Shown here: piece after piece, positions 10,766-19,333 of the stretch
How the letters are laid out: each line of letters starts with the position of its first letter
How positions within the stretch are numbered: the stretch's first letter is position 1
Virus record (IMG/VR): IMGVR_UViG_3300025264_000145
Coordinates: 1 to 20,710 of that record
Source: a virus
Strand: one strand, 5' to 3'
Length of the DNA: 20,710 nt
The notes under the pieces: model-generated
What the model saw: only the letters and a program-made list of their open reading frames with translations
The model's database searches: none
What the model was told of the DNA's origin: nothing
Program-made: the position numbers and the translations under genes

Positions 10766-11097
10766 AAGTAGGATTATTAGATTTAGAAACAGTGCCACAC
10801 GCACCTACATCAAAGTTTTTAACAAAAGCAGAGATGCGAAAGATAGATTCTGAATGGATATGGAATCGCCAGAGCTTTATATTCAAACACAAAATTCCGC
10901 TGATGGTTGAACGAAAGCAGGCAGATATGCTTGTTGATAAGTATAATTCGGTTCAATATCACGATAAAAAGGAAGACCTTAGAAAAATGAAGTACAACGA
11001 TTTGAAAAGAATGGGTAGAACCAAGGGTATGTCAAATCAGGATACATTCGTAAAAAAAGAATTATTGATACAGGCAATAGAAGAATTAGATGGCTGA
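10762..11097 (+). CDS. Small protein with C-terminal SAP/Rho-N-like motif (111 aa)
   Basis: 111 residues, ATGA overlap with the lysozyme gene and 8-nt overlap with the next. Residues 1-65 are mixed ('FLTKAEMRKIDSEWIW', 'FIFKHKIPLMVERKQADMLV') and unrecognised. Residues about 73-109 read 'LRKMKYNDLKRMGRTKGM' then 'KKELLIQAIEEL', which fits a SAP/Rho-N/HeH fold: helix, short loop with Gly, helix with K-K-x-E-L-[LI]. A similar motif ends the protein at 8642-9085. Placement just before the adaptor genes suggests a virion joining or head-completion role, but this is inference. Confidence 0.65.
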   Translation: MKVGLLDLETVPHAPTSKFLTKAEMRKIDSEWIWNRQSFIFKHKIPLMVERKQADMLVDKYNSVQYHDKKEDLRKMKYNDLKRMGRTKGMSNQDTFVKKELLIQAIEELDG

Positions 11098-11707
11098 CAA
11101 GACAATAACATACTACGATGTGGTGCAGGAAATCCTCAAGCGGGTGAATGATGCCGATGGTGATATCTATCTTGACAGGGCGAAAGAATTGGTGTATGAA
11201 GGTATATCATCGTTAGCAGTCAGTGAAGGTGTGACCAAAGATGATATTGTAGGAATCTTGAAATCGGAAGTAGTTGATGTTTCAAACCTTGGAGGTAAGT
11301 TACAGATTAAAGGTGATGATAAAGATTTAGAGAATAACCCAGCTAAAATTATCAGTATTGTTGACGACCTTACAGCACCAGACGAGGTTATAATTGGTGG
11401 AATCACAGAACATCGGTATATAGAATTATCATTGGCTGAAGTTAATCGTCTTAATGACCCTGATTATAGCCCGTTCAATGATGAAATATTCTATTACCAA
11501 AGGGGTGATTATATTTATTTTTATCCACAAGAAAGAATGGTTAGTCAAAAATTAGTTATTACTTATATTGCAGAACCAGATAGTTATGCTTATACAGACA
11601 ATCTTTTTGCTGCGTCTTTTTTTGAAAAGTTATATTCCTTTAATTTTATATATAAAGTAATTGATTACGGTGTAGGCAGGATAAGGGAGCAGCAAAGCGG
11701 GGAATAA
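11090..11707 (+). CDS. Head-tail adaptor-like protein, paralog 1
   Basis: 205 residues. An N-terminal helical part ('TITYYDVVQEILKRVNDADG' and 'AKELVYEGISSLAVSEG') is followed by a beta part with 'DEIFYYQRGDYIYFYPQE' (residues 131-148) and 'LVITYIAEPDSY', then a final helix 'FNFIYKVIDYGVGRI'. Closely comparable to the next gene product in all three parts, so the two are duplicates. The layout (helical bundle plus small beta domain) and the position between lysozyme and fiber/hub genes fit adaptor or tail-completion proteins that dock on the portal. The specific function is inferred, as no experimentally known family is clearly matched. Confidence 0.65.
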   Translation: MADKTITYYDVVQEILKRVNDADGDIYLDRAKELVYEGISSLAVSEGVTKDDIVGILKSEVVDVSNLGGKLQIKGDDKDLENNPAKIISIVDDLTAPDEVIIGGITEHRYIELSLAEVNRLNDPDYSPFNDEIFYYQRGDYIYFYPQERMVSQKLVITYIAEPDSYAYTDNLFAASFFEKLYSFNFIYKVIDYGVGRIREQQSGE

Positions 11708-13152: not shown

Positions 13153-15831
13153 ATGACTGATTTTCTAAAAGGTAACACACCAGCGACAATCTACCAACAA
13201 TTATTGGGTGTAGGGGGAGCAGCAGACCATGCTGGGTTAACAGCATCGTTAAAATCTGTATTCACAGATGATGGTTCTGGAGCCAGTAATGCTTCTTCAT
13301 TTAAATTATCTACATCAGCTTTAAGGATTGAATCATCAAACCAACTAAGATTCCGTGATGATGCTATTTATATATATAGCTCTGGAGATACAATTATGAA
13401 TCTTGTTGCTGACGGAGAGATTGATTTAGCGACAGCAACTGTTGATATAAATGCTACTACCGCCTGTACTATTGACAATACCAATACTTCAAATGGTGTT
13501 CAAATTGGTGCTGGTGTCAGTGGGATGCCTATTACACTTGGTCATTCAACTTCAGAAACTACAGTAGCGGATAATTTAACTGTCACCGGGACAACTGCAC
13601 ACACGGGTGTTGTAACTGTTGCAACTGGGGTCAAGTTACAATTTGTTGATGGAAATGAATATTTATCTGGAGATAGTACAAATTTAACTCTTGGTGCTTC
13701 TGCCGATATTAATTTAACGGCAACTACGGATATTAATATCCCCGCAAATGTTGGTCTTACTTTTGGTGATGATGGTGAAAAGATTGAAGGTAATGGTACA
13801 AAATTAGATATTATGAGTAGTGGGGCGTTGGAACTTACTGGTGCAGCAAATTCAACTTGGAAAACAACATCTGGTAGTATAAACATAGATTCTGAAGCCT
13901 CTACAGTAGAAGTAGATGGTCATAGTGGTGTTACAATACAGGGTAACGCAGCGGAAATTGATATTGTAACTTCAGGTGCAGTAGACATTGATTCTGCTGG
14001 ATTCACATTAGATGGAACAACCTTATCTATAGATGGTACGGATGATTCAAATGTAACTGTTACTGGTTCTGGTAAAGATTTAACTCTATCAGTTGCAGGT
14101 GGTGGAACACAACAACTGGTAATGTCATCTGCTGGGACTGCGGCTAATGCTGTAGTCTTGGAATCTAAGGCTGGTGGTATAGATATTTTAGCTTCAGGGG
14201 CAGCGTCAAGTGAAGATATTGACATTGTAGCAACAGGTTCGTCTGTAAATATTTCCTCATCTGAGAATGCTGCGGATGCGATTGTATTAAGTGCGAGTGC
14301 TGGTGGTATAGACATTACATCATCTGGTAGTGCAGGAGAAGATATTGATATATCAACATCTTCATCTGTTAATGTAACATCAACAGAAAATGCTGCAAAC
14401 GCCATTTACTTGAGGGCAAATGGTGGAACAAGTGAAACAATTAAGGTTCATGCAGACCAAGGGACTGGAGATGATTCAATTTATGTATTATCTGATGTTG
14501 GTGGTATAAGTATTGAATCTGGGAAAACTGGTGCGATTACCAATATGGCATCGGATAGTGCTTCAAGTATTACAAATGCGGTTATTAGAATAGGGACGGA
14601 TACTGCAAATTGTGACATAGCAATTGGTAATGGTACATCAGATGTATTGATTCAGGATAATTTAAAAGTTGGTGGTGACCTTTATGTTGTAGGAACACAA
14701 ACATATACTGCATTAGCTGTATCAGCGGGTACAATATCAAGAATAACATTAAGTAATACTGATGAAGAAAATGGTGGTGGTGGTCGTGATACTGAATTAT
14801 TATTTAAAGGGGAAACTGGAGCTTCAACAGTACATGAATTAGCAGCTATTACTGTATCTCACCAAGGTAGTTCTGCTGATATGCATGGTCAGATGCATTT
14901 TAGGCTTAATGACTCAATCTCAGGAGCATCCTTAGCTTCCATAGATGGGGCAGATGATGTGTTAACTCTTACCTACGATAAAACAGCTACGTTTGGTGGT
15001 GCAATAGCCGCTGGGACAAATGTAATTACTGGTGGACAGGTCAATGCAGATAATCTAAGGCTTGATGGTAATGTACTAAGTTCAACAGATAGTAATGGGG
15101 ACATTACTTTAACTGCCAATGGGACTGGTGGGATTATGATGTTGAACACCAACGCCCCCGGTGAGGACTCTGTTTCAATTGGTAATAATGCGAATGCTGA
15201 TGGAGACAAGGCACTGGCACTTGGACGAGCTGCAAGGGCAAGCGCAACTGATAGTGTTTCTATCGGTGATACAAATACGGCTTCCGGTGCTAATAGTGTG
15301 GCGATTGGTGATACAAATACTGCTTCTGCTGCAGGTAGTATTGCAATTGGTGCTGCCAATGTTTCATCAGGTTCATTCTCTACCGCACTCGGATATAGAG
15401 GAAAGGCAGATAGGAGGGGAGAAGTATCGTTCTCTGCTAATTATTTTGCCGCTGTTGGTGATACAAGATGTTGTATGTTCCACGAACTTGACACTCTCAC
15501 CATGTCTGGAAGTTGGCAAAGTATTAATGGTGGAACTGGCGGTATAACCTTTGATAGTGATACAGTGGCTTGCGGTCAAGTGATGATTGTCGGTTCTACA
15601 TCAGGTGCTGCTCTTACAATAGGGTTCGTAATAGATTTCCTTGCTGAGAATGATGGTGGTACATATTCAGTTATCCAGACAAATGTAACTTCTTTAGATA
15701 CTTCGGATACCAGTTTCAATGCACAAGTAGCGATTGACTCTAATACAGTAGTTGCCCAAGTAACAGATGATTCTGTGACATCCAGCATGAAATGGAGTGC
15801 ATTCTGGAAATTAGTACAGCATACATTTTAA
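13153..15831 (+). CDS. Tail fiber protein with YadA-type head repeats
   Basis: 892 residues. The start 'MTDFLKGNTPATIYQQLLGV' is an anchor-like segment seen in phage fibers. Residues 30-330 are beta-rich (for example 'DIDSAGFTLDGTTLSIDGT'). Residues 331-460 are tandem units ending 'SSENA', 'STENA' (see repeat entry). Residues about 672-750 carry the 14-residue 'SVSIG/SVAIG/SIAIG' repeat of YadA-like trimeric adhesin heads, which forms a left-handed parallel beta-roll. The last 140 residues, starting near 'GDTRCCMFHELDTLTM', form a beta-sandwich-like C-terminal domain of a type I have seen at the ends of aquatic phage fibers. Expected to be trimeric and to contact the host. Coupled to neighbours by 12-13 nt gaps and preceded by AGGGG. 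No enzyme motif. Confidence 0.75.
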   Translation: MTDFLKGNTPATIYQQLLGVGGAADHAGLTASLKSVFTDDGSGASNASSFKLSTSALRIESSNQLRFRDDAIYIYSSGDTIMNLVADGEIDLATATVDINATTACTIDNTNTSNGVQIGAGVSGMPITLGHSTSETTVADNLTVTGTTAHTGVVTVATGVKLQFVDGNEYLSGDSTNLTLGASADINLTATTDINIPANVGLTFGDDGEKIEGNGTKLDIMSSGALELTGAANSTWKTTSGSINIDSEASTVEVDGHSGVTIQGNAAEIDIVTSGAVDIDSAGFTLDGTTLSIDGTDDSNVTVTGSGKDLTLSVAGGGTQQLVMSSAGTAANAVVLESKAGGIDILASGAASSEDIDIVATGSSVNISSSENAADAIVLSASAGGIDITSSGSAGEDIDISTSSSVNVTSTENAANAIYLRANGGTSETIKVHADQGTGDDSIYVLSDVGGISIESGKTGAITNMASDSASSITNAVIRIGTDTANCDIAIGNGTSDVLIQDNLKVGGDLYVVGTQTYTALAVSAGTISRITLSNTDEENGGGGRDTELLFKGETGASTVHELAAITVSHQGSSADMHGQMHFRLNDSISGASLASIDGADDVLTLTYDKTATFGGAIAAGTNVITGGQVNADNLRLDGNVLSSTDSNGDITLTANGTGGIMMLNTNAPGEDSVSIGNNANADGDKALALGRAARASATDSVSIGDTNTASGANSVAIGDTNTASAAGSIAIGAANVSSGSFSTALGYRGKADRRGEVSFSANYFAAVGDTRCCMFHELDTLTMSGSWQSINGGTGGITFDSDTVACGQVMIVGSTSGAALTIGFVIDFLAENDGGTYSVIQTNVTSLDTSDTSFNAQVAIDSNTVVAQVTDDSVTSSMKWSAFWKLVQHTF
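14143..14520 (+). repeat. Tandem 41-43-residue repeats in fiber 2
   Basis: Protein units start at codons 14143 (ANAVVLESKAGGIDI), 14272 (ADAIVLSASAGGIDI) and 14395 (ANAIYLRANGG). The first two are 43 and 41 residues and align throughout, both ending in SSENA or STENA; the third is diverged, with 'VGGISIES' further on. DNA identity is partial, so these are older duplications within the shaft. Confidence 0.65.
15166..15400 (+). repeat. YadA-head-type 14-residue repeats
   Basis: Recurring units of about 14 residues: DSVSIGNNANADGD, KALALGRAARASAT, DSVSIGDTNTASGA, NSVAIGDTNTASAA, GSIAIGAANVSSGS, FSTALGYRG. Two adjacent units also share near-identical DNA ('ATTGGTGATACAAATAC' at 15305-15321, one base different at 15263-15279). 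This is the Hep_Hag/YadA head pattern known from trimeric autotransporter adhesins, which phage fibers also use. Confidence 0.8.
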
Positions 15832-15844
15832 CAGGAGTTGGTAA

Positions 15845-18800
15845 ATGGCTAAAAGGGCATTACCTCTCCTTACGGGTGGGCTAAACGACGTAGCCCGTTC
15901 TGACCTAATAGACGATAGTCAGCTTCAGGAATGCCTAAATTACGAGATTACTGGTGATGGGGTACTGAAACGAAGGACAGAACAAGACACATTTGATAGC
16001 GTTTTAAATACTAAACTTTCTGAGTTATTCAATACTGTAAAAGTTATTTCAGAGCCGTATTATTTTGTAACAGATATTGACCTTACTAATTCTAACGGAT
16101 ACACATTAAACTCTGATTTTATTTTACTTGCATTTGGTATTACAGATAGTGGTACATACGAGATGCATACATTGTATAAGGTCAATGAAACATGGACTAA
16201 TGCAGCTCAATATGCTGTAGGCGGGGCAGAAACAACATTAAATACTTTATTGACCGATTCTGGTGTTGTGTATACTGCTGAGTCTGATGTCCAATTCGTC
16301 GTGTCAGATGACAGGATTATTGTTACTGACAATGTTAATCCAGCCCATTTTGTCACTATTGACGTAGATGGGTTTTTCAGGGCTGGGAAATTAGGGATGC
16401 CAGCCCCGACAAATAAGGCAAGGGTCGAACATATCACCGAGTGGGACGATTCTTTATTTGAAGAAACATCCACGAATACGAGATTATCACAGATTGGTCT
16501 ATTCCAATGCACATATACAGCGGTTACGAAATCAGGGGATGAAAGTAATCCTGCCCCACTATCTGATACACTGGATATGCAGTTCTTTAAGATTGATGCG
16601 AATGGTGCAGATGAAAGGTGGATTGATAAGGTCTTTATTACTGATTTATCTGTTCCAGACATATCTAAAAATGATTTAGAAGATGTAAAATATTTCAAGG
16701 TTTATATGCGTGTTATGCGTTATTCTGAGGGAGAAACACTTCAGACATTAGACTTGACAGAACAGTTTGAGATAATAGATAAATCAAATACAACTGGGAC
16801 TACTGGTAATAATTATCCATTGACAGTGGAAGTCACTGCAGGCGATACGGCAGATTATGAAAATGATGTTGCTCCAATATCAAAGACCGCAGCATCTCTG
16901 GGCGGCATCACGATGGTCGGAAATGTACAGACAAAAATTAATTTCCCCCATGAGTTCAAATACTATCATCCAATAACTATTAGTAATAAAGATAATAAAC
17001 ATTATGTAGATGCTGTTGTTAAGATACGCCTATACGATGAAGATTCAGGGAATGATGATGCGATTGAACATTTCAGTGTTGGTGATTTTTTTGAATCAGG
17101 GACTCCGGGTAATGATATGACAAAAAATGCACAGCATTTGAGGTTATACGATGAAGATTCAACTACCCCAATAATGGTTGCTTGGAAACAGGGAGAATCA
17201 GTTGCTGGTGGTTATGTTGATTTATATGTAAAGGTTCCGTTATCAGTCGCTGGTTCTTCTCATGTGGTCTATCTATGTTGGACAGATGAAGCCAATATGG
17301 ATTATTACGATGGTGTGCCAGATGTATACAATAATTTAGTTAATAATGATATTTCTTGGGATGGGAATATTGGAATCCACTATGGTCTGGTTATGCAATT
17401 AGGATACCAGAATTTTAATAGACAACAAGTGTGGAACAATAGCCGAGTCAGAAATACATCATCATTAATTATTACTCCACAGGAATTTTCGATATCGGGG
17501 CAGGGTTCTTTAAATAAAGCTAATACTAATGTAGATGGCACACTAACTGACATTTTATCAAGCACTGATTATAGGTCATCTATACCACAATTTGAGTCCT
17601 TTAGTGAATTTAAGATGGGAAGCCTTAGTTATAAAGCAACAACTGATAGTAGTAGTAGGATAACATATAAAATGTTATATACTGATGGTTCTGGAGTTAC
17701 AGCAAGTGAGATAAATCTGAGTAGAGGTTTTGTTTCTGCAACAATCACATTTGATTTAAGTGAATTATCTAATCTTGCGACAGACGCTAATGGTAACAAA
17801 AAAGGAATATTTTTTGTTTTGGCTGTTAGTGATTCAACTTATATTGATTCCATAAATAGAGTCACACTGGGGTTAAATGGCGATGGTGCGTCTACTGAAG
17901 TATTCACATGGGGAATGTCAAGACAAACAAGAGAAGGTGACCATGCAATATCTGGGGATAATAATTTCATAGATATGCCTACCTATAGTGAAAGTGATGC
18001 TGCAATAAAAACATACAATGTATTTTGGAGTTGGGATTTTGATTTACTAAAGTCAACTCTTGTATTATATGATACAGGCAGAACCTTTTCCAGAGTTGGT
18101 TTAAATTATGGTATTTATGCAAGCGAGATTGATGATTTACAGGAGGGAAGATACCAGAATAGTGTTGAGAATGATTATCTTGTTGATTATAGAGAGGCTG
18201 TAATAACAGATTTTAGATTTGGGAAAAGTCAATATGGCTCAACAAATAGGGCTGAAGTCCCAAGTAATACATATGTTGATAATCTTGTTGTCTATAAAGG
18301 TGAATATGTTAACAATCTTCATAGGATATATCAGTTGTGGAATTTCCAACCCATGTATGAGAATGCCATAGGGTATGATTGGGATGTGACATATAACAAT
18401 AATATTGATTTTGACGAAACAAAGGAAATCAAATACAAGTCTAACAGGAACATGGTCAAGTGGACAAACGTAAACGGCAAGTCGTTTCCTGATTTATATT
18501 TCAAGAAGGTTAGAGAACCAGTCATTAAAATAATGCCAGCACCTTCTTTTCTACAATTTGAGTATCAGAACACATTCATTATCTTCACAAGGAACAGCAT
18601 CAACAGGTTTGTATTGCAAGGTTCTGCAAGTGGTTGGGGTGGTTCATCGAGTTCACTCATAGAAGAGAAGCAGCAGTATGGTCTATTGGCTGAGAAGTCA
18701 TTAGTCAGGGCTGGAGATGCTTTATTCTGGTTAAGTGAAGTAGGTGTTGTAAAATGGGACAGAGAAGGACTTGGTTTAATAACTAAGAACATAATCGATG

Positions 18801-19333
18801 TTCCAATAAAGTCGTCGTTGATAGGTTATTATATGCCTTTAAACAACCAATATGTACTACATGATACTTTGAATCAGGGTACAAGTTATGTTTATCATAT
18901 CGAAAGGAACGCATGGACTAAGTTCAGCGGTCTGGATGTAAAGCAGGCTATAACTCTTACTGGCGGGTCGCAATTGGAGAATATCAATTTGTTTTTGAAT
19001 GAAAATTCACCTGCAATAGATTCTTACCCGACTGATACCTATACACCAGATGATTCAAACATTAAAACAAAAAGTATGTTTTTTGAAAAGGGAACTCTAA
19101 AAAGGATTAAAGTTGATTATAGTGGTGATGATGATAATAAAAATATTCAATCAATCGTAGGGAATATGGTGGGAACAGAAATAATACATGAAGTCGAGGC
19201 AGAGTCAAATGAATGGAGAGGTGTTCCACTTGGAAAAAATAGGGGTAGGTCTGTAGAATTTATAGTTAACAACGCAGATACTATTTCATCAATCATGTAT
19301 GACTTAGATATTGAAGCAGAGGTAAAAGTATAA
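15845..19333 (+). CDS. Tail-hub/stabilisation-like protein with DUF2341-like insertion
   Basis: 1162 residues. The N-terminus 'ALPLLTGGLNDVARSDLIDD' and residues to about 365 look like the start of tail hub (P22 gp10-like) beta-propeller proteins. The C-terminal part from about 860 continues this core: 'FPDLYFKKVREPVIKI', 'NTFIIFTRNSINRFVL' (about 909), 'AGDALFWLSEVGVVKW' (about 955-970) and 'YVYHIERNAWTKFSG' (about 1017-1031). Between them, about residues 365-835 form an apparent insertion: first a DUF2341-like domain ('YYHPITISNKDNK', 'LRLYDEDSTTPIMVAW', 'GYVDLYVKVPL', 'HVVYLCW', 'YYDGVPDVYN'), then a long beta-rich, possibly lectin-like domain ending 'YVDNLVVYKGEYVNNLHRIY'. The hub closes the portal-adaptor channel, and the insertion could bind surface sugars. 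Ribosome site AGGAG. Core call moderate; insertion call by pattern only. Confidence 0.7.
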   Translation: MAKRALPLLTGGLNDVARSDLIDDSQLQECLNYEITGDGVLKRRTEQDTFDSVLNTKLSELFNTVKVISEPYYFVTDIDLTNSNGYTLNSDFILLAFGITDSGTYEMHTLYKVNETWTNAAQYAVGGAETTLNTLLTDSGVVYTAESDVQFVVSDDRIIVTDNVNPAHFVTIDVDGFFRAGKLGMPAPTNKARVEHITEWDDSLFEETSTNTRLSQIGLFQCTYTAVTKSGDESNPAPLSDTLDMQFFKIDANGADERWIDKVFITDLSVPDISKNDLEDVKYFKVYMRVMRYSEGETLQTLDLTEQFEIIDKSNTTGTTGNNYPLTVEVTAGDTADYENDVAPISKTAASLGGITMVGNVQTKINFPHEFKYYHPITISNKDNKHYVDAVVKIRLYDEDSGNDDAIEHFSVGDFFESGTPGNDMTKNAQHLRLYDEDSTTPIMVAWKQGESVAGGYVDLYVKVPLSVAGSSHVVYLCWTDEANMDYYDGVPDVYNNLVNNDISWDGNIGIHYGLVMQLGYQNFNRQQVWNNSRVRNTSSLIITPQEFSISGQGSLNKANTNVDGTLTDILSSTDYRSSIPQFESFSEFKMGSLSYKATTDSSSRITYKMLYTDGSGVTASEINLSRGFVSATITFDLSELSNLATDANGNKKGIFFVLAVSDSTYIDSINRVTLGLNGDGASTEVFTWGMSRQTREGDHAISGDNNFIDMPTYSESDAAIKTYNVFWSWDFDLLKSTLVLYDTGRTFSRVGLNYGIYASEIDDLQEGRYQNSVENDYLVDYREAVITDFRFGKSQYGSTNRAEVPSNTYVDNLVVYKGEYVNNLHRIYQLWNFQPMYENAIGYDWDVTYNNNIDFDETKEIKYKSNRNMVKWTNVNGKSFPDLYFKKVREPVIKIMPAPSFLQFEYQNTFIIFTRNSINRFVLQGSASGWGGSSSSLIEEKQQYGLLAEKSLVRAGDALFWLSEVGVVKWDREGLGLITKNIIDVPIKSSLIGYYMPLNNQYVLHDTLNQGTSYVYHIERNAWTKFSGLDVKQAITLTGGSQLENINLFLNENSPAIDSYPTDTYTPDDSNIKTKSMFFEKGTLKRIKVDYSGDDDNKNIQSIVGNMVGTEIIHEVEAESNEWRGVPLGKNRGRSVEFIVNNADTISSIMYDLDIEAEVKV
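17031..17161 (+). repeat. 17-nt direct repeat inside the hub insertion
   Basis: TATACGATGAAGATTCA occurs at 17031-17047 and 17145-17161, 114 nt (38 codons) apart in the same frame, both encoding LYDEDS when the preceding codon is included. It lies within the DUF2341-like region. It may be convergent codon use in two equivalent strands or a small internal copy event. Confidence 0.6.

Follow-up and report, generated by a model that had tools for sequence, protein, structure and literature searches.

A putative tail protein of an uncultured phage carries, between two conserved flanks, a module made up of a DUF2341-like domain and a second domain of concanavalin-type jelly-roll fold. The module is kept in all full-length relatives of the protein, and its second half is the fastest-diverging part. 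We think it reasonably likely that this ORF closes the tail of a short-tailed phage and that the module, at its nozzle or muzzle tip, makes contact with the host surface, probably with glycans.

The window, that is, the whole stretch of DNA analysed, is the 20,710-base virus record IMGVR_UViG_3300025264_000145 (positions 1 to 20,710), and by its sequence the genome is of short-tailed-phage-like type. The features discussed below are as follows (all on the + strand).

11090..11707, +, SU10-type adaptor relative (matches of the family to PF24175, SU10_adaptor)
13153..15831, +, fibre gene with YadA-head repeats (PF05658, E 3.2e-10), directly upstream of the hub gene
15845..19333, +, putative tail nozzle/muzzle (hub) protein, 1162 aa (single ORF, relatives, gene order)
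15845..16942, +, conserved N-terminal core, residues 1–366 (42–86% identity to relatives)
16400..16879, +, probable Ig/Fn3-like segment, residues ~186–345 (boundaries approximate), counterpart of the crAss001 muzzle IG1
16943..17299, +, DUF2341-like domain, residues 367–485 (hhalign 97–97.6%, E 1e-10 to 4e-12)
17300..17599, +, linker, residues 486–585 (low model confidence, pLDDT under 50 over much of its length)
17600..18334, +, ConA/LamG-type jelly-roll (lectin-fold) domain, residues 586–830 (fold matches; fast-diverging)
18341..19330, +, conserved C-terminal core, residues 833–1162 (50–85% identity to relatives)

The hub gene follows the adaptor relative and a fibre gene, one of two in the window, and the portal and major capsid protein genes are recognized by matches to phrog_156 and phrog_334, respectively. 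The order portal, capsid, adaptor, fibre, nozzle that marks nozzle/muzzle systems is thus found in the window. Five of six members of the adaptor family match PF24175 at E ≤ 1 (best 1.2e-5), the window's own copy only at E 0.04. The fibre gene directly upstream shares 46–77% identity with its relatives. Its C-terminal end varies between clades, with a Peptidase_S74 chaperone domain in the copy of L013 (359–3436) that is not seen in that of the window. Three relatives also have an extra fibre-like gene between the hub and the ejection-type genes (L013, 7011–8936; L014, 7011–7901; L015, 7035–8951), and the window has none there.

Ten relatives of the hub protein were collected, all from viral metagenome contigs. 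Nine are full-length or nearly so (L001, L002, L003, L004, L007, L013, L014, L015, and L155), and L005 is truncated; in an additional contig, L159, the match is limited to residues 1–61. The start codon of the hub ORF is TTG in L007 (position 6001) and L155 (position 8001) and ATG in the window. No relatives of the hub were found in genome contigs or in eight whole genomes, and cultured phages, searched by tblastn, yielded no relative for the whole hub, its C-terminal part, the portal, or the capsid protein; with a fragment as query and a limit of E ≤ 10, the few matches there were weak and chance-like.

The preliminary description had proposed that residues 365–835 (residue 366 begins at 16940) split a hub-like core. 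Conservation is indeed high in residues 1–366 and 833–1162 and drops in the module between them (residues 367–830). The module is present in nine of the nine full-length relatives, and none of these, all from viral metagenomes, is free of the insert, so that the insertion event itself is not observed. Presence in all relatives, as part of a continuous propeller, had been named in advance as speaking against an insertion, and this is half borne out, the module being carried by all relatives found. That the two flanks form one continuous propeller is suggested by gene order and layout.

Compared with the window, the relatives average identities of 0.58 and 0.63 across the flanks, 0.47 across the DUF2341-like domain (residues 367–485), and 0.38 across the linker; the lectin-like part (residues 586–826) is the least conserved stretch of the protein, at 0.19. 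In the distant relatives, the lectin-like half retains 11–18% identity against 42–56% in the flanks. The dN/dS ratio in three diverged pairs is also highest in the lectin-like part (0.31–0.73, compared with 0.09–0.26 in the flanks); being below 1, these values do not demonstrate positive selection. The lectin-like part (19% mean identity against 58–63%) diverges in the manner of a receptor-contact module, as would suit the putative host-binding role first suggested for the insertion, and it is less well conserved than the adjacent fibre.

DUF2341 is a widespread domain of unknown function. HMMER with PF10102 gave no match above the Pfam gathering cut-off in the window or the relatives, and HMMER searches of Pfam, NCBIfam, PHROGs, and PDB sequences returned nothing for the module. 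The domain assignment of the preliminary description thus fails in a direct domain search and holds in profile–profile comparison. The query profile was an alignment of eight rows covering residues 367–560. A DNA-pattern scan of genome contigs for the DUF2341 hallmark, WVKVP and then YYGN, supplied the first comparison set of 77 usable domains. Against this set, hhalign gave a probability of 97.1% (E 1.4e-10), and other parts of the hub protein reached 0.1% or less. The top score among 100 column shuffles was 18.7 against the real 68.1, and all decoys (the shuffles and the reversed profile) remained at or below 1.6%. Against a second set of 26 domains, 26/26 confirmed as PF10102 by Pfam, the probability was 97.6% (E 3.9e-12). 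The alignment reveals a common pattern of F/W-x-Y...ITI.N, R-F/L..D, V-K-V-P, and I-Y-L, and the domain is modelled mostly at pLDDT 70–90. By profile–profile comparison, residues 367–485 are homologous to DUF2341.

Although DUF2341 had been described as usual in bacterial secreted proteins, it also occurs in other viral proteins, namely in 25 viral contigs (L160–L184). There, it often begins within the first 20 residues of the ORF, a signal peptide is not evident, and LamG or F5/8C domains sometimes accompany it. In three of these proteins (L168, L176, and L184), DUF2341 is followed by Laminin_G_3, the same order as in the hub, which makes it probable that the module is such a DUF2341–Laminin_G_3 tandem in diverged form.

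For the second domain, the preliminary description had read a LamG-like segment from the sequence. A search of the hub with LamG/Laminin_G_3 (PF13385) sequence profiles found no match and hhalign gave at most 1.3%, so this claim was rejected at the level of sequence; it is the predicted structure that bears it out as a fold of the ConA type. Other large ORFs in the records of L013, L014, and L015 (G007–G009) do contain Laminin_G_3 domains, five per record, so in these relatives LamG domains may also serve at other places; the search found none in the window record.

The structural model of the module has a mean pLDDT of 67.3, with block means over ten residues ranging from 52 to 91 in model residues 261–464. 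The DUF2341 sequences added to its alignment end before any LamG region, and the lectin-fold domain was therefore folded from hub relatives only. In Foldseek, the module model matches legume lectins with E values of about 1e-4; in VIA-align, jelly rolls of LamG, CBM40, and pentraxin type score Z up to 12.5, the superposition having an rmsd of 3.7 over 172 residues of a moderate-confidence model. Matches among viral models include ConA-like proteins from phages and a DUF2341 protein from an archaeal virus. According to the model, model residues ~221–464 (protein residues ~587–830) form a jelly roll of the concanavalin/LamG/CBM40 type. CBMs of sialidases and parts of animal toxins that bind receptors are among the top matches; these reflect the common jelly roll and are uninformative on function. 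Proteins that are not lectins also have this fold, and neither a ligand nor a catalytic motif or metal site could be assigned to the domain.

The core is more difficult to place. The full-length hub model (pLDDT 44) is too poor for a propeller test or a fold search, and hhalign found no significant match of the hub core to the SU10-type, T7, or crass nozzle proteins; in the same comparison, the SU10-type and T7 proteins likewise fail to match the muzzle. The assignment of the core to the nozzle/muzzle proteins rests for this reason on layout and gene order. The best hhalign match of the N-terminal core is muzzle IG1, which none of 100 shuffles equalled, at a probability of only 27%. The probable Ig/Fn3-like segment is also backed by matches to phrog_511 in five of nine family members (best E 2.6e-7), the window's own copy not among them. 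A likeness of the junction strands seen by eye was discarded as evidence, as 16 of 100 shuffles scored equally high.

From these data, we infer the following arrangement. The hub would be a nozzle/muzzle-type protein that closes the tail, its N-terminal third contributing a platform strand, the first blades, and an Ig-like domain to the conduit and its C-terminal third the remaining blades and platform. The tandem of DUF2341 and LamG type (~465 residues) would enter where crAss001 gp44 has IG2 and the crass domain and SU10 gp17 has its Ig nozzle domains. Probably present in six copies, it would project from the tip of the tail and, after the fibres bind, would meet the host surface there, with a glycan as its likeliest target, a contact that may help to trigger channel opening. 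Low conservation of the lectin-like part, its higher dN/dS, and the better-kept neighbouring fibre all point to host contact, as does a similar proposal by the crAss001 authors, in which the domain at the muzzle tip makes the contact with the cell and owes its variation to insertions (PMC10172136). The module is thus probably a fast-evolving part that contacts the host surface.

The main rival to this reading gives the module a structural role, as an extension that lengthens or gates the nozzle channel and binds no receptor, as the Ig-like nozzle domains of SU10 might suggest, which straighten and extend the tail by about 28 nm (PMC9509320). Retention of the module in all relatives and the lack of a known ligand for DUF2341 agree with such a role; on the other hand, the lectin-like half has diverged far beyond the flanks, unlike a channel-forming part, and ConA folds often bind ligands, so that we regard a purely structural role as possible, though unlikely. 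Docking of a fibre, with the fibres rather than the module contacting the host, has a precedent in the same phage, where the short fibre is docked by a loop of the nozzle and is in contact with nozzle domain 4 (PMC9509320), and would suit the relatives with an extra fibre-like gene directly after the hub gene. However, the window and its nearest relatives carry the module without that gene, and the lectin-like part is less well conserved than the adjacent fibre; this makes docking improbable. Least of all do we expect an enzyme, such as a laminarinase or other depolymerase clearing surface polysaccharide. GH16-type glucanases are among the Foldseek matches, but non-enzymatic lectins and CBMs match better, and inspection of the sequence by eye shows no obvious GH16 E-x-D-x-x-E motif; the string that comes closest reads EIDDLQE in the window and EITDLPE in L001.

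If host contact by the module is correct, the nozzle/muzzle tip would be a general slot for exchangeable domains, lectin-type ones included, DUF2341 would gain a testable role, and tail conduits, beside fibres, would be flagged as places to look for host-range determinants. More tentatively, and with some doubt, this lineage may have taken a DUF2341–LamG surface module into the tip of the tail conduit as a third, ring-like, glycan-reading layer besides the two fibres, which would be the first concrete role of DUF2341. A literature search of partial coverage found no paper linking DUF2341 to a phage tail.

Compared with the DUF2341 (PF10102)–Laminin_G_3 proteins of bacteria, archaea, and viruses, the module has the two domain types in identical order, but it has diverged below the Pfam cut-off, has a linker of about 100 residues, and forms part of a tail hub, whereas those proteins are secreted or stand alone. 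The preliminary description knew of no such arrangement in hub proteins; with regard to position, it has precedents in three. In the T7 gp12 nozzle, a platform and seven-bladed propeller are interrupted by a tip domain (PMC6702177), as we propose for the hub, although the T7 tip is a small beta-barrel and shares no sequence match with it. In SU10 gp17, blades 2 and 3 are separated by four Ig-like domains (PMC9509320). The window resembles SU10 in its adaptor–fibre–nozzle–ejection gene order, its adaptor relative, and beta-rich domains inserted near what would be blades 2–3, whereas gp17 lacks DUF2341 and ConA domains and its core does not match in sequence.

The layout agrees with that of the crAss001 gp44 muzzle, in which IG1 lies between blades 2 and 3 and IG2 and the crass domain lie inside blade 3 (PMC10172136). 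The order of parts proposed for the hub, with an N-terminal conduit part, a probable Ig-like domain, a short strand, a large insertion, and a C-terminal conduit part of ~340 residues, is that of gp44 (366, 464, and 330 aa for N-terminal part, insert, and C-terminal part in the hub against 317, 704, and 350 aa in gp44), with a weak in-register match at IG1. Overall sequence similarity is not significant, and the gp44 insert has IG2 and the crass fold in place of the DUF2341-like and ConA-type domains. Since distal domains between or within propeller blades are standard in the described nozzle and muzzle proteins, the placement of the module is not new; what appears to be new is the pair of domains inserted into this slot at the tip.
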